Shown one piece after another: positions 29,814 through 62,669 of a DNA stretch of 64,000 nucleotides (within the stretch, counting starts at the first letter, position 1; each line of letters opens with the position of its first letter). The notes under the pieces are model-generated. The model made no database searches. It worked only from the letters and a program-made list of their open reading frames with translations, and was not told the origin of the DNA. Source of the stretch: Alphaproteobacteria bacterium (lineage in GTDB: Bacteria; Pseudomonadota; Alphaproteobacteria; Caulobacterales; Maricaulaceae). The DNA lies in the NCBI GenBank assembly GCA_016124665.1, contig WGNH01000017.1:62001-126000 (forward strand), in the 5' to 3' direction. Both the position numbers and the translations under genes were made by a program.

Positions 29814-30989
29814 ATGGCGAAGCGTGATTATTACGATGTGCTCGGCGTTGACCGGACGGCCGACGACAAGGCGCTGAAAAGCGCCTATCGCAAACTGGCC
29901 ATGCAGTATCACCCGGACCGCAATCCCGGCGATGCCGAAGCTGAAGCGCGCTTCAAGGAAGTCGGAGAGGCCTATGCGGCCCTCTCTGATCCGCAAAAAC
30001 GCGCCGCCTATGACCAGATGGGTCATGCCGCCTTTGAAGGCGGTATGGGCGGCAGCGGACAGGGTCCGTTCGGAGGACATGCCGGAGCGGCCGATTTCGC
30101 CGATATTTTCGAGCAGGTCTTTGGCGGTGGTTTTGGCGGCATGGGAGGGCGCCGGGGCGCGCGCCGCAGCAACGGGCCGGCCCGCGGTTCCGACCTTCGC
30201 TATGATCTCGAAGTCAGCCTGAAAGACGCTTTCGAGGGCAAATCGGAAACCCTGAAGGTTCCGACCAGTCTGACCTGTGAGCGTTGCAGCGGAAATGGTG
30301 CCGAGCCAGGCACGCCGCTGGAGACCTGTGGCACGTGTGCAGGACAGGGTGTGGTCACCGCCGGCAACGGCATGTTCCGCATTCGCCAGACCTGCCCGGC
30401 CTGTGGCGGACAGGGCAAGACGGTTTCCGAGCCTTGCCATGAGTGTGACGGTGTGGGTCAGGTCCGCAAGGTGCGGACGCTGAATGTCGATATTCCGGCC
30501 GGCGTGGAAGATGGCATGCGCATTCGCCTGGCCGGTGAGGGCGAGGCCGGTGCCCGCGGCGGGCCACGGGGCGATCTCTACATATTTGTCTCGATCCGGC
30601 ACCACGATCTCTTCGAGCGCGATGGCCCCAATCTCTATTGCCGCGCGACCGTGCCGATGGTGACCGCCGCTCTGGGCGGCTCGATCTGTTGTCCGGTGAT
30701 AGATGGCGGCAAGGCCGAGCTGAAAATCCCGCCTGCATCCCAGACCGGAAAACGTATGCGGCTGAAGGGCAAGGGCATGCCCCGGCTGCGCGGCGGGCCA
30801 CGCGGCGACATGATTGTCGAACTATATGTTGAAACGCCGCGCAATCTGACAGAACGCCAGAAGGAGTTGTTGCAGGAATTCTGCGAGCTCTCCGGTGGAA
30901 ACTGTAATCCGGAATCAGAAGGATTTGTCGGCAAGGCAAAACGCTTCTGGGACGATCTCACCAGCGAGGATGGCCGGCCCAGCGTCTAG
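29814..30989 (+). CDS. dnaJ: Chaperone protein DnaJ (Hsp40)
   Basis: Co-chaperone that delivers clients to DnaK and stimulates its ATPase. The 391-aa protein has the J domain at residues 1-70 (YYDVLGVDRTADDKALKSAY, the HPD tripeptide in MQYHPDRNPGD), a Gly-rich region at about 75-120, the zinc-finger domain with four CxxCxG-type repeats (CERCSGNG, CGTCAGQG, CPACGGQG, CHECDGVG) and the C-terminal substrate domains. It follows dnaK after 65 bp including a hairpin. Its stop interlocks with that of the convergent TetR gene in CTAG. Confidence 0.97.
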   Translation: MAKRDYYDVLGVDRTADDKALKSAYRKLAMQYHPDRNPGDAEAEARFKEVGEAYAALSDPQKRAAYDQMGHAAFEGGMGGSGQGPFGGHAGAADFADIFEQVFGGGFGGMGGRRGARRSNGPARGSDLRYDLEVSLKDAFEGKSETLKVPTSLTCERCSGNGAEPGTPLETCGTCAGQGVVTAGNGMFRIRQTCPACGGQGKTVSEPCHECDGVGQVRKVRTLNVDIPAGVEDGMRIRLAGEGEAGARGGPRGDLYIFVSIRHHDLFERDGPNLYCRATVPMVTAALGGSICCPVIDGGKAELKIPPASQTGKRMRLKGKGMPRLRGGPRGDMIVELYVETPRNLTERQKELLQEFCELSGGNCNPESEGFVGKAKRFWDDLTSEDGRPSV

Positions 30990-31630
30990 GCAGACGGCGC
31001 GGTCAGATACCACAGCGCCGCCTTCTGGATGTCCGATGTAAAGGCGCGGCGCGCCGCTGCATTGTCTTGCAGATCGGCCTGGAACAGCGCCGCATCGCGG
31101 CTCAAACCGATCACCAGGGTCAGCAGAAACCGCGCCGCGGGTGGTGCAAAGTGTGGCGGCTTGATCTTGAGCACTATTAGTGTTTTCGACAGATCCTCGG
31201 CCAGTGTTTTAGGCGGCTGGGCGAGATCCACCGGGCGGCCCGCCAGCCGCGAGAGCAGAGCCCGGTTCTCAAGCCCGTGAGCCACGCAGTCCTCGGCCAG
31301 TTGCCCGATCCAGCGATGCACATCGCGGTGCCGTCTTGCTTCCTGATTGCCCGCCATCAGCCTGTTTGTCAGCACATCGAGCCGGTCGGCATAGAGCGCG
31401 TCCAGCGCCGCCGCCTTGTCCGCAAAGCGGCCATAGAATGCGCCCACAGAGGATTTTGCCTTGCGCGCAATATCCGCAACGGTGAGGGCATCAATCGAGT
31501 TGTCCTGAACGGATTTCTCCAGAATCTTGAGGATTCGGGCCCGCGTGGCGCGGCTGCGCGCCTGCATGGCAGGGCGCACACCGGACGCCGGCCCCGATCC
31601 GGCCTCGTCTTCGATTTTCCACTCCGCCAA
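30986..31630 (-). CDS. TetR-family transcriptional regulator
   Basis: DNA-binding regulator of 214 aa. The N-terminal helix-turn-helix is RARILKILEKSVQDNSIDAL followed by TVADIARKAKSSVGAFYGRFADKAAALDAL, typical of TetR; the C-terminal ligand domain is not assignable. The start is uncertain: the longest frame begins with TTG at 31630, preceded by GAGAAG eight bases upstream, and an ATG at 31567 would remove 21 residues but keep the DNA-binding domain. A TTAA-N7-TTAA motif resembling a CtrA box lies at 31635-31649, immediately before the TTG. It is divergent from no assigned gene on the plus strand and convergent with dnaJ. Confidence 0.87.
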   Translation of the reverse strand: MAEWKIEDEAGSGPASGVRPAMQARSRATRARILKILEKSVQDNSIDALTVADIARKAKSSVGAFYGRFADKAAALDALYADRLDVLTNRLMAGNQEARRHRDVHRWIGQLAEDCVAHGLENRALLSRLAGRPVDLAQPPKTLAEDLSKTLIVLKIKPPHFAPPAARFLLTLVIGLSRDAALFQADLQDNAAARRAFTSDIQKAALWYLTAPSA

Positions 31631-31634
31631 GGGC

Positions 31635-31649
31635 TTAACTTCTCATTAA
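31635..31649. promoter_or_regulatory. TTAA-N7-TTAA motif (CtrA-box-like) upstream of the TetR gene
   Basis: TTAA-CTTCTCA-TTAA matches the core of the CtrA full-site consensus. It begins 5 bp before the putative TTG start of the TetR regulator, so CtrA binding there would block or overlap its expression signals, or act on a promoter facing the other way. The core contains only eight specified bases, all A or T. Confidence 0.4.
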
Positions 31650-50257: not shown

Positions 50258-50841
50258 GCCGGAATGACGCCTTCGCGGCGCAGCAGCGCCAGTACAGGCA
50301 GGAGCGGCAGGCCGAGTATGGCGTAATAGTCGCCTTCGATTTTCTCGAAAAGCTGCGCGCCAAGTCCTTCAAATGCATAGGCTCCGACGCTGGCCGTCAA
50401 TTCATCCCCGGCTGTTTCCATATAGTGGTCCAGAAAAGCATTGGAAAAATCCCTGACGCTCAGATCGCTGTCCTCGGTATGAGTCCAGATGGTTTCACCC
50501 TTGCGGACCGCCGCCAGCCCCGAATGGAGAATATGGGTTTTGCCGCGCAGCGTCTGCAACCGCGCCCTTGCTTCATCCTTCGACCGGGCCTTGTCGTAGA
50601 TCTGCCCGTCGAGGCCAAGGATCTGGTCCGCGCCCAGAACCACAGCCTCCTCTCCGGCTTGCACCGCTTTTGCCTTGGCTTCCGCCAGTTTGATTGCCAG
50701 TCCGGACGGGTCTTTGCCGATCCATTCCGCCTTGATGGCATCCTCATCGACACCCGATGTCTGGACCTCGAACGCCACGCCTGCGTCTTCCAGTATCTGG
50801 CGGCGAATCGCGCTGCCGGAGGCCAGAATCAGACGGGTCAT
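50254..50841 (-). CDS. maf: Maf family nucleotide pyrophosphatase
   Basis: 195-aa protein of the Maf/Ham1 housecleaning NTPase group. LILASGSAIRRQILEDAGV at the N-terminus, AVVLGADQILGLDGQIYDKA in the middle and DYYAILGLPLLPVLALL near the C-terminus are family signatures. Maf proteins hydrolyse modified or canonical pyrimidine triphosphates and influence septum formation; the exact subfamily is not decided here. The start overlaps the ppsR stop by four bases. Confidence 0.94.
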   Translation of the reverse strand: MTRLILASGSAIRRQILEDAGVAFEVQTSGVDEDAIKAEWIGKDPSGLAIKLAEAKAKAVQAGEEAVVLGADQILGLDGQIYDKARSKDEARARLQTLRGKTHILHSGLAAVRKGETIWTHTEDSDLSVRDFSNAFLDHYMETAGDELTASVGAYAFEGLGAQLFEKIEGDYYAILGLPLLPVLALLRREGVIPA

Positions 50842-51674
50842 GACGCTTTCGCCTTACGGTCATTGATGAGATTGAGGATTTTTGCGGCCGTCTCCTCGAC
50901 CGAGCGGCGTGTCACATCAATGGTTGGCCAGCCATGGCGGGCGTACAATCGTTTAGCCGTGATGATCTCATCCTTTACCGATGTATCATCCACATATTCG
51001 GTATCCCGGCCTTCATTCAGCGATAACAGCCGGTTACGGCGGATCTGGACAATCCTTTCCGGAGAAGCGGTCAGACCGACGATCAGCGGGTTTTTGAGAT
51101 TTTCAATGCCGGCCGGTTCCATCGCGCCCCGTACCAGCGGAATATTGGCCGCCTTGACGCCCCGATGCGCAAGATAGATGCAGGTCGGCGTTTTCGATGT
51201 GCGGCTGACACCCAGCAGCACGACATCGGCACCTTCCAGATTTCCGCCCTGTCCATCATCATGCATGATCGCATAATTGAGCGCTTCAATCCGCTCATAA
51301 TACTGGGCATCCAGATCGTGCTGGGCCCCGGCACGGCTGGAGGGCGGCATCGCCAGATATCCCGACAGCGTGGCGATGATCGGATCCAGGATCGCAATCG
51401 CAGGCACACCGATCTTCTGGCAATGATCTTCCAGCCGCCGGCGCATGTCGGCAGAAACAATGGTGTACATGACAACACCGGGGGCGCGTTCGATCTCCTC
51501 CAGGGCGCGGTCAAGCTGACGCGGCGAGCGGACGAGCGCGTAAAGATGCTCGATCAGTTCCACATCTTCAAACTGCGCCACCGAGGCGCGCATCACTTCT
51601 CCCAGCGTTTCGCCGGTTGAATCCGATACCAGATGAACATGAAAACTGCGGGGAGCAGATTTGGACTTGGGCAT
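50838..51674 (-). CDS. ppsR: Pyruvate, water dikinase / PPDK regulatory protein (DUF299)
   Basis: 278-aa bifunctional kinase/phosphorylase that inactivates and reactivates PEP synthase or pyruvate phosphate dikinase by ADP-dependent phosphorylation. Family signatures are FHVHLVSDSTGETLGEVMRA at the N-terminus, the P-loop-like GVSRTSKTPTCIYLAHRG, ANIPLVRGA and GLTASPERIVQIRRNRL. Which target enzyme is present cannot be told from this window. It is the first gene of a five-gene minus-strand operon reading away from the origin; its start codon is 25 bp from the CtrA box at 51699. In Caulobacter this gene also borders the origin. Confidence 0.93.
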   Translation of the reverse strand: MPKSKSAPRSFHVHLVSDSTGETLGEVMRASVAQFEDVELIEHLYALVRSPRQLDRALEEIERAPGVVMYTIVSADMRRRLEDHCQKIGVPAIAILDPIIATLSGYLAMPPSSRAGAQHDLDAQYYERIEALNYAIMHDDGQGGNLEGADVVLLGVSRTSKTPTCIYLAHRGVKAANIPLVRGAMEPAGIENLKNPLIVGLTASPERIVQIRRNRLLSLNEGRDTEYVDDTSVKDEIITAKRLYARHGWPTIDVTRRSVEETAAKILNLINDRKAKAS

Positions 51675-51698
51675 GCGCGCTATCGGTCCGGACGGGGG

Positions 51699-51713
51699 TT
51701 AATGAAGTGTTAA
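51699..51713. promoter_or_regulatory. Perfect CtrA box TTAA-N7-TTAA at the origin
   Basis: TTAA-TGAAGTG-TTAA followed by C matches the full CtrA site TTAA-N7-TTAAC exactly. It lies 25 bp upstream of ppsR and at the left edge of the predicted origin. In Caulobacter, CtrA bound to such sites silences the origin in swarmer cells. Confidence 0.75.
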
Positions 51714-51818
51714 CAAGTCAGGGACTCGTTAACACCCTCACGGGCGAATTTGTCTTACCCCCGATCATCGGGGAAAGCCGCCCGTCTTGTCCATTCCGAA
51801 TTCACAGCGGACCTGATG

Positions 51819-51827
51819 TGTGGACAA
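51819..51827 (-). promoter_or_regulatory. DnaA box (8 of 9)
   Basis: Reads TTGTCCACA on the minus strand, one mismatch from TTATCCACA. It faces the perfect box 40 bp to its right. Confidence 0.65.
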
Positions 51828-51865
51828 ATGGCCGGCCGATACCGAAATTAACATCCACAGGCTGT

Positions 51866-51874
51866 TTATCCACA
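51866..51874 (+). promoter_or_regulatory. Perfect DnaA box TTATCCACA
   Basis: Exact consensus box, just left of the AT-rich core. A weaker box (ACATCCACA, 7 of 9) precedes it at 51851-51859, and further 7-of-9 boxes lie at 51984-51992 (minus strand) and 52007-52015. Confidence 0.85.
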
Positions 51875-52127
51875 CGTAATCCCGCTACAATATCAATCAA
51901 CATATTGAATGAAAGAAAGAATTAGGGTTTTCCTGTTTTGTAAACAGAAGACCATTCTGATTTTAATAAACAGTCAGGAATTGTGTGGATTCCGGGGAAA
52001 AGACACTTCCCCACACAACCCACACACCAACGACTCTCACAATCAATAAAACAAGACTCTGTAAGAAAGGGGGAGAAGTGATTAACGCGGATTGCCTTCC
52101 GGCATATTGCCCCCTAACCCTCCGGTC

Positions 52128-53150
52128 ATGACCAAAAGCATTCTGAAAGTTCTGAACGGAGAAGCGCTCGATCAGCCGCCGGTATGGCTGATGAGACAGG
52201 CCGGGCGCTACTTGCCGGAATACCGGGAAGTCCGGTCCGGTGCGAAGAGTTTCATCGACTTCTGCCTGACGCCGGATAAGGCAACAGAAGTCACCTTGCA
52301 GCCCATCCGCCGCTTTAACTTTGATGCGGCAATCTTGTTTGCCGATATTCTTTTGATCCCAATGACTTTGGGCCGCAAGGTCTGGTTCGAGACCGGTGAA
52401 GGCCCGAAGCTTGATCCATTGTCAGCAGACGACATTGCCGGCCTAGAGATCGGTGATGTCGAGGCCATACTCGGACCGGTCGGTCAGACCGTCGCCAGTC
52501 TCTCGGTCGCACTTCCGGCGGAGACGGCATTGATCGGATTTGCCGGCTCGCCCTGGACGGTCGCGACCTACATGATCGAAGGCGGCGGATCAAAAGACCG
52601 CTGGAATGCACGGCGGATGTATTGGCAATATCCGCAGGCCATGGCGCGTCTGCTTGACCTGATCGCCGACGCCACAATCCGCTATCTGGTGATGCAGGCC
52701 AGAGCCGGGGCCGAAGTGCTGAAACTCTTCGATAGCTGGGCGGAAGGGCTGCCGCCGCCCATGTTCGAGGACATGGTCATCCGTCCGACACGCCGCATTG
52801 TTGATGGCCTCCGGGCAGCCGGAATTACCTGTCCGGTTATCGGCTTTCCGAAAGGGGCCGGGCCGAACTATATCGGCTATGCAGAGCGTAGTGGTGTGAC
52901 CGCCCTGGCGCTGGATCACGGTCTCAATACGCAATGGGCATTGGATAATCTGCCGGAGCGCATGCCGCTGCAGGGACAACTGGACCCTGCCGCGCTGCGC
53001 GCCGGCGGGGAAGCGCTTGACGCTGAAATTGATCGGATCATTTCCGCTTTCCGGGGCCGGCCGCATATTTTCAATCTGGGCCATGGCATAACACCGGATG
53101 TTCCGGTTGCACATGTCGAGCAACTGGTGCGGAAAATCAGAGGCGAATAG
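52128..53150 (+). CDS. hemE: Uroporphyrinogen decarboxylase
   Basis: Decarboxylates uroporphyrinogen III to coproporphyrinogen III in haem synthesis. The 340-aa protein begins with the usual LKVLNGEALDQPPVWLMRQAGRYLPEYREVR (two Arg of the substrate site), then DAAILFADILLIPMTLG, IGFAGSPWTVATYMIEGGGS, LKLFDSWAEGLPP and a conserved C-terminus FNLGHGITPDVPVAHVEQLV. The ATG at 52128 is preferred over one 36 bp upstream, which would only add an unrelated leader. It is the first gene right of the origin, as in Caulobacter where the hemE promoter overlaps Cori; hemH follows 2 bp later. Confidence 0.97.
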   Translation: MTKSILKVLNGEALDQPPVWLMRQAGRYLPEYREVRSGAKSFIDFCLTPDKATEVTLQPIRRFNFDAAILFADILLIPMTLGRKVWFETGEGPKLDPLSADDIAGLEIGDVEAILGPVGQTVASLSVALPAETALIGFAGSPWTVATYMIEGGGSKDRWNARRMYWQYPQAMARLLDLIADATIRYLVMQARAGAEVLKLFDSWAEGLPPPMFEDMVIRPTRRIVDGLRAAGITCPVIGFPKGAGPNYIGYAERSGVTALALDHGLNTQWALDNLPERMPLQGQLDPAALRAGGEALDAEIDRIISAFRGRPHIFNLGHGITPDVPVAHVEQLVRKIRGE

Positions 53151-60071: not shown

Positions 60072-60087
60072 TGTTCCACGTGGAACA
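60072..60087. promoter_or_regulatory. parS: parS centromere site 1 (mnmE-mnmG gap)
   Basis: TGTTCCACGTGGAACA is a perfect 16-bp palindrome of the chromosomal parS class (core of TGTTNCACGTGNAACA), extended by one further pairing base on each side. It lies 5 bp after mnmE and 68 bp before mnmG, where ParB would nucleate on the origin-proximal DNA. Confidence 0.9.
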
Positions 60088-62018: not shown

Positions 62019-62669
62019 ATGGGGTTCGGGCCAGAGGAGTTCCGGAAAGCCACCGGTGTTTCACGTGAAACACTCGCGGCCTTCACCATCTGGCACGACA
62101 TGCTGGCCGAGGCCAACACGGCCACAAACCTCGTTGGACGCTCGACCATGGACGATTTCTGGAAACGTCATGCCCTCGACGGATTCCAGCTCATCGATCA
62201 CGCCCCGCAGGACGGGCTGTGCTGGCTCGACCTTGGGGCGGGCGCAGGCATCCCCGGCCTGGCACTGGCGCTGGCGATGAAAGACCGCGGCCTAACGGCA
62301 TCCAAACTGGTCATGGTCGAATCGGTCGGCAAGAAGGCGCGATTCGTTCAGGCCACGATCGATGCCACGGGCGCGCCGGCCCGCATGGAAAACTGCCGTG
62401 TTGAAGCCCTGGATCAGACGGAAAAATTCGATGTCATTACGGCCCGCGCCGTCGCTGCACTCGATAAATTGCTCTGGTATGCCTATCCGCTGTTGAAAAC
62501 CGGCGGAATCTGCCTCTTTCCCAAGGGGCAGCGCTACCGTCAGGAATTGACGGATGCCAATAAATACTGGACCTTCGACGCAGATGTTCGGCCAAGTCAG
62601 ACCAGTGAGGAAGGAGTCATACTCCATATTTCCTCCCTCCGGCCGAAGAAGGGAAACCGGCATGCCTGA
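62019..62669 (+). CDS. rsmG: 16S rRNA (guanine(527)-N7)-methyltransferase RsmG (GidB)
   Basis: Methylates G527 of 16S rRNA; loss gives low-level streptomycin resistance. The 216-aa protein has NTATNLVGRSTMDDFWKRHALDGFQL, LDLGAGAGIPGLALALAM, LVMVESVGKKARFVQAT and DVITARAVAALDKLLWYAYPLL, all canonical. The ATG at 62019 is chosen because it lies just after the mnmG stop and gives the usual length; the longer frame is antiframe of mnmG. Residues 14-19 (GVSRET) are encoded by the second parS site, so this N-terminal protein sequence is constrained by centromere function. It overlaps parA by 8 bp. Confidence 0.96.
   Translation: MGFGPEEFRKATGVSRETLAAFTIWHDMLAEANTATNLVGRSTMDDFWKRHALDGFQLIDHAPQDGLCWLDLGAGAGIPGLALALAMKDRGLTASKLVMVESVGKKARFVQATIDATGAPARMENCRVEALDQTEKFDVITARAVAALDKLLWYAYPLLKTGGICLFPKGQRYRQELTDANKYWTFDADVRPSQTSEEGVILHISSLRPKKGNRHA
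62057..62072. promoter_or_regulatory. parS: parS centromere site 2 (inside rsmG)
   Basis: TGTTTCACGTGAAACA matches the canonical bacterial parS sequence at all 16 positions, extended by one pairing base on each side. It overlaps codons 13-18 of rsmG and lies 600 bp before parA. Together with the site at 60072 it makes a two-copy centromere about 8-10 kb from the origin. Confidence 0.95.

Follow-up and report, generated by a model that had tools for sequence, protein, structure and literature searches.

Does the gap between the divergent genes ppsR and hemE in this genome serve as the chromosomal origin and, if it does, is initiation there held back by the cell-cycle regulator CtrA? The wider interest lies in how such a regulator gains, then loses, control of an origin. 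The window, by which we mean the whole 64-kb stretch of DNA analysed here, covers C14:62001-126000 in an assembly of 46 contigs and 2.7 Mb. HemE of this marine bacterium shares 99.7% identity with the protein of Hyphobacterium indicum 2ED5, placing the organism in the genus Hyphobacterium. A sequence-only reading of the window had taken the gap for a Caulobacter-like origin gated by CtrA.

Results

The putative chromosomal origin (oriC) is the ppsR-hemE intergenic gap at 51675..52127 (453 bp, 48% GC). To its left lies a gene of the ppsR family (PPDK/PEP synthase regulator subfamily; 50838..51674, minus strand), which scores 325.5 bits with NF003742 (cut-off 225) and falls below the cut-off of the PpsR equivalog model NF049928 (159.3 vs 350); to its right lies hemE (52128..53150, plus strand; TIGR01464, 378.6 bits). 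Transcription does change direction here, as the sequence-only reading had said, and its description of the gap as the only long gene-free one is roughly right, the gap being the longest by a crude choice of open reading frames with a runner-up of 337 bp. Beyond hemE, profile models identify hemH, a hemJ-like gene (120.6 bits, cut-off 138.05), rho and mnmE, followed by mnmG, rsmG, parA and parB, which were named by eye from translations. On the other side, ppsR is flanked by maf, an aroE-like gene whose best models score below their own cut-offs, a coaE-like frame (by eye), dnaQ and secB. A perfect parS-like 16-mer, TGTTTCACGTGAAACA, is found at 62057..62072, 10 kb off the gap, and a second parS-like site with two mismatches, TGTTCCACGTGGAACA, lies at 60072-60087 between mnmE and mnmG. 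We take COG1806/DUF299 to be the ppsR family. Flanking hemE and COG1806 genes are a published criterion for Caulobacter-type origins (PMC1914354); the gap is bounded by hemE and ppsR and holds a cluster of DnaA boxes with an AT-rich segment.

Every motif that the earlier reading had listed is present in the gap, and motif enrichment was assessed against 2000 dinucleotide shuffles of the gap. The DnaA boxes comprise an exact box, TTATCCACA (51866..51874, plus strand; P 0.016), a box with one mismatch, TTGTCCACA (51819..51827, minus), and the weak boxes ACATCCACA (51851..51859, plus; two mismatches), GAATCCACA (51984..51992, minus; two mismatches) and TTCCCCACA (52007..52015, plus; 7-of-9). Matches to TTATNCACA at up to two mismatches number 11 vs 4.1 in shuffles and the TCCACA core occurs 4 times vs 0.31, counts that no shuffle reached. 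The AT-rich stretch at 51871..51990, which is likely to be the unwinding region, includes the lowest-GC 100 bp of the window (in 10-bp steps; start 51891, 30% GC). It also includes a match to the IHF consensus, AATCAACATATTG (51895..51907, plus), with P 0.03 for WATCAANNNNTTR and 0.13 for the looser WATCAN5WTR. An imperfect repeat, TTTTNNNAACAGAA-N4-TTCTGATTTTAA, spans 51936-51969 of the window and is kept partly or wholly in the five closest genus gaps.

With regard to CtrA, the full TTAA-N7-TTAA box TTAATGAAGTGTTAA (51699-51713; P 0.0085) lies within a putative edge operator, GTTAATGAAGTGTTAACAAG (TTAA-N7-TTAAC; 51698..51717), centred 32 bp away from the start codon of ppsR. This operator contains the 9-mer TGTTAACAA (51708..51716, minus), the position of a TGTGNAYAA DnaA box in the group of relatives called clade A below; read on the minus strand as TTGTTAACA, it is the DnaA consensus with two mismatches. 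TTAAC gives 7 strand-hits vs a shuffle mean of 1.13 (P 0.0005), with plus-strand half-sites at 51729..51733, 51848..51852 (overlapping the weak DnaA box at 51851) and, near hemE, 52082..52086. The four GANTC sites (51723, 51988, 52032 and 52055) show no excess over chance in the gap (P 0.13, shuffles); those at 52032 and 52055 precede hemE by ~70-95 bp. A single further exact TTAA-N7-TTAA occurs in the window; it lies at 31635-31649, directly upstream of a TetR-like gene named by eye (30986-31630, minus), and GANTC sites occur near it at 31532 and 31657.

Skew was followed in a closed congener (G004; 2,690,927 bp) using 60 samples of 20 kb, or ~45% of the chromosome. After detrending, the lowest cumulative GC skew falls in the sample at 2,250,001, which adjoins the hemE sample (2,298,688), and the highest falls roughly half a chromosome from there, in the sample at 900,001. 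Raw skew has its minimum at 2,520,001 instead, some 220 kb off hemE, because one arm has almost no skew. In our own fragmented genome, contig C14 (130.6 kb) has no clear skew switch at the gap: skew declines as far as ~84 kb, stays almost level beyond hemE (114 kb) and then declines again. A search of the G004 samples (~45% of the chromosome) for dif, allowing up to six mismatches to the E. coli core, returned none. The raw minimum in G004 and the lack of a sharp switch in C14 are what might be said for the gap being a mere divergent promoter region, with the origin elsewhere. Against this stand the detrended minimum beside hemE with its maximum near the antipode, the AT-rich core and DnaA boxes in the gap, the parS-like site 10 kb away and the persistence of the neighbourhood, ppsR being upstream of hemE in 78/81 loci and beside all 103 family gaps fetched (overlapping sets). 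We consider an origin elsewhere very improbable and the gap very probably the chromosomal origin. The flanking genes, the motif enrichment, the nearby parS and the detrended skew of the congener thus bear out the earlier reading on this point, although the skew of that congener agreed with it only after detrending.

Within the genus, hemE was found in 7/8 genomes and seven gaps, the window's included, were aligned; the middle of this alignment has diverged, so that single boxes there may be misaligned. The edge operator is kept in 7/7 gaps, with its left half reading TTGA (one mismatch) in G002 and G007. The half-site at 51729 recurs in 5/7 gaps, and that at 52082 reads TTAAC or TTAAT in 4/7. 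The half-site at 51848, TTGAC in the nearest congener, is unkept in the six aligned congeners, as are the IHF match and the GANTC at 51988. The GACTC at 52032..52036 is present in 7/7 gaps and the GANTC at 52055..52059 in 5/7, where its middle base (C, T, G, T, A) varies as if the methylation site itself were selected. Regarding the DnaA boxes, we found that: (i) the box at 51819 has an aligned copy in G001 only, and G006 has TGTGGATAA at gap position 162 (145 for the box in the window's own gap), unaligned with it; (ii) the exact box at 51866 is exact in G001, TTTTTCACA in G003 and degenerate in the other aligned gaps; and (iii) the weak box at 52007 occurs in varied form in 6/7 gaps, being the same in G001, TTACCCACA in G003 and in G006, TTACTCACA in G004 and TTCTCCACA in G002, and is absent from G007. 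Gating by CtrA is plausible insofar as the full box is conserved, but the half-site at 51848, the IHF match and the GANTC at 51988 are absent even from the nearest congener.

The sequence-only reading had named the absence of ctrA as a ground against itself; ctrA is present (NF045991, 426.6 bits, cut-off 350), and the receiver domain of its product matches the solved CtrA receiver 4qpj. The gene chpT is on the same contig as ctrA, and dnaA is on the window's contig; a DnaA C-terminal domain in a 120-aa frame separate from dnaA was also observed (L169, G000:C22:67837-68022). A gene for a CcrM-like methylase with N6_N4_Mtase and RAMA domains is present, its N end cut (586.9 bits with the Caulobacter CcrM model, below the cut-off of 830), and GANTC is half as frequent in the window as in dinucleotide shuffles (166 vs 319), as expected with a CcrM-type methylase. 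The ctrA promoter (L045:930-1020) carries GTTAAC twice at 10-bp spacing plus GTTAACCAT, with three GANTC nearby, and autoregulation of ctrA appears likely from these motifs. We found no match to gcrA in our own assembly (G000); gcrA was found in 7/7 congeners and in 131/137 family genomes. A true loss was rejected because all seven congeners have the gene, and an assembly gap is probable. A genome-wide count of the strict motif TTAAN7TTAAC (6 places; 7 matches vs 14 for the backward control pattern) was set aside as too rare to inform.

The position of CtrA-like sites was compared across the family, where hemE was found in 120 genomes, 103 gaps were fetched and 97 were counted; five gaps without hemE in the fetched stretch were left out, as was the one gap of g2, which has edge-like and other sites and was counted apart. 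A CtrA-like site was defined as TTAA-N7-TTAA with no more than one mismatch, ppsR starts are tblastn-based estimates, and the position windows (edge, middle, hemE side) were drawn after the site histogram. The edge-site genera, namely g1 (Hyphobacterium), g12, g18 and g4, are a pool formed after the positions had been seen and are not a clade; they have a site at the ppsR edge in 42/42 gaps (shuffle mean 5.0, maximum 11). Clade A (g6, g13, g14, g15 and g19), a clade in both trees described below, has a middle site in 25/25 gaps (shuffle mean 0.5, maximum 3) and an edge site in 0/25. Group B, a single clade among 6 rows of the 10-gene tree, has a hemE-side site in 24/30 gaps (shuffle mean 3.9, maximum 9) and an edge site in 3/30; in the PpsR tree, g9 (a member of B with no site) falls outside this group and g2 inside. 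These means and maxima come from 100 shuffles and, the relatives being non-independent, serve as comparisons and not as probabilities over independent events. AT-rich gaps readily produce one-mismatch sites by chance (22.6 expected over the 42 gaps of the edge-site genera and 32.9 over the 30 of group B), and therefore it is the position of such sites that carries information and not their presence. In distance from ppsR, the range for clade A (~180-320) overlaps that for much of B (~280-400); 'middle' and 'hemE side' may thus be a single interior address, the hemE leaders differing in length. Four further loci from Rhodobiaceae-like and related MAGs (L011, L013, L017 and L038) have ppsR-hemE gaps with 4-8 DnaA boxes at up to one mismatch, and neither a full CtrA site nor GANTC turned up when these four gaps were searched.

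A quick 10-gene tree of 28 rows joins g1, g12 and clade A (SH-aLRT 99) and g4, g18 and group B (97), with A and B each at 100. Holding the edge-site genera together is rejected in this tree (p-AU 7.25e-8; the group was named only once the sites were known); the PpsR tree alone does not reject them as one clade (p-AU 0.109; 0.307 for g1 and g12 alone). The 10-gene tree splits the edge-site genera, and the edge operator is thus present in both main clades. At least three changes are needed to explain this, in line with a single gain followed by two losses or with separate gains. For the one-mismatch labels, minimal change counts on the PpsR tree (8 for edge, 13 for middle) were noisy and were not used. 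The operator of g1, GTTAATGAAGTGTTAACAAGT, is nearly identical to that of one g18 gap (L195), GTTAATAAAGTGTTAACAAGT, which favours a single old edge site, and the presence of edge sites on both sides of the main split is an argument for the CtrA type being old within the family. Counter to this, the four Rhodobiaceae-like gaps have DnaA-like boxes, by eye, at the ppsR edge.

In the first 110 bp of the gap, the edge 9-mer takes one of two forms. The CtrA type, TGTTAAYAA, is found in 39/42 gaps of the edge-site genera and in 0/25 of clade A; the DnaA box TGTGNAYAA is found in 0/42 and 19/25, respectively, where shuffles give at most 2, and the remaining 6 gaps of clade A have TGTGAACAT. The two forms are mutually exclusive at the edge and at their closest are one base apart; TGTTAACAA and TGTGAATAA represent the exchange that we propose. 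A flank, TT[TG]TCC, follows 7-13 bases further on in 13/41 boxes of the edge genera plus g2 (all of them g12) and in 8/24 of clade A, and was seen in 0/7 g1 gaps and in no g18 gap. The flank is common to g12 and clade A only, so for Hyphobacterium the equation of the two 9-mers rests on position and on g12. The wider context TG-TTAA-YAA surrounds 35/44 edge sites, 1/36 middle sites of clade A and 0/33 hemE-side sites of B. CtrA alone is not expected to demand this context, so the DnaA-like frame may still matter at the edge CtrA site.

Discussion

Taken as a whole, our preferred model is of a Hyphobacterium origin at which DnaA triggers initiation and CtrA, from the edge operator, holds it back, and we think it reasonably likely to hold. 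DnaA would occupy a single strong box, together with several weak ones, around the AT-rich core (51871-51990), and would melt that core; phosphorylated CtrA would occupy the conserved operator at the ppsR edge (51698-51717), in clade A the place of a DnaA box; and bound CtrA would curb assembly of the DnaA complex and/or transcription at the edge when the cell should not replicate. Judged from sequence, the two CtrA steps differ in strength: CtrA quite probably binds the edge site, while a restraining effect of this binding on initiation is conceivable but slightly easier to doubt than to accept. Some 100 bp separate the operator from the nearest DnaA box that has no more than one mismatch, which would make simple exclusion of DnaA, of the kind described in Cori of Caulobacter crescentus, less direct.

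A simpler scenario is that the conserved box is an operator of the ppsR promoter, through which CtrA regulates ppsR and has no action on replication here. The centre of the box lies 32 bp ahead of the ppsR start, a distance that would roughly suit an activator site if the transcript were leaderless. Furthermore, in 39/42 edge-site gaps the site starts 20-40 bp from the estimated ppsR start, and middle (3/42) and hemE-side (2/42) sites are no commoner in these gaps than in shuffles. Weighing against this, no conserved -10 is apparent between box and start (g12, by eye), and a CtrA-like site lies at least 200 bp from both genes in 25/25 gaps of clade A and in 21/23 Caulobacteraceae-like gaps (assigned by title or tree place; L005 has an edge site as well, the sites of L023 are elsewhere, and L032 is without any). 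The constant feature is therefore the presence of a CtrA-like site in the gap and not of one at ppsR. We regard control of ppsR alone as rather unlikely. Less likely still, to the point of being improbable, is the gate as originally read, with the full site and three half-sites acting jointly across the origin. The enrichment of TTAAC in the gap and the recurrence of the half-site at 51729 are in keeping with it, but the other two half-sites are poorly or incompletely kept in the genus, and the five-site layout of Cori (PMC1914354) is not what we see. Nor does the layout in the gap look like a thinned-out Caulobacter array, because an edge site is found in 42/42 gaps of four family genera.

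The alternation of the two 9-mers suggests that a DnaA box and a CtrA half-site can exchange at the ppsR edge. Extending this, the origin may have stayed fixed in this family while the CtrA operator moved, with a swap between TGTGAAYAA and TGTTAAYAA at the edge such that one base decides between initiator and brake. We put this forward tentatively, as less likely than not, and have lowered our estimate of it somewhat, because the interior addresses may be one and the flank is missing in g1 and g18. If true, a fixed origin, a moving CtrA site and a near one-base exchange would be testable by point mutations in marine laboratory strains. The placement of CtrA sites hints that a cell-cycle brake on replication can move during evolution.

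That hemE/ppsR origins carry CtrA sites is already known (PMC1914354, PMC4468827). Cori shares with the gap its hemE/COG1806 flanks, DnaA boxes, AT-rich region and TTAA-N7-TTAA CtrA sites (PMC1914354). It differs in having five CtrA sites along its length (PMC4468827), whereas the gap has one full site, at the ppsR edge. Two G-boxes in Cori adjoin or overlap CtrA sites (PMC4468827); the gap has the exact box TTATCCACA and no TGATCCACA, and its overlaps are between the edge site and a DnaA-like 9-mer with two mismatches, and between the unkept half-site at 51848 and a weak box. Weakening all five Cori sites had a mild effect on the laboratory cell cycle, and the sites became essential with nutrients plus antibiotics (PMC4468827). 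In Hyphomonas neptunium there is a CtrA ChIP-seq signal next to the origin (PMC7200025), and S. meliloti is reported to be without CtrA binding next to its origin (PMC4433202). Among marine Caulobacter origins some use CtrA, a use that probably evolved independently (reviewed in PMC4468827, citing Shaheen et al. 2009). The hemE origins of Wolbachia, Rickettsia, Anaplasma and Ehrlichia were similarly predicted from DnaA, CtrA and IHF motifs, some with few CtrA sites; these bacteria differ in being obligately intracellular, and in Wolbachia the COG1806 gene is not adjacent (PMC1914354). In the open-licence literature, outside which Shaheen et al. 2009 falls, we found nothing on how the position of the site differs between clades or on an exchange of DnaA and CtrA sites. 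What appears to be new relative to these systems is the clade-wise position of the CtrA-like site over 97 family gaps, together with the alternation of the edge 9-mer.
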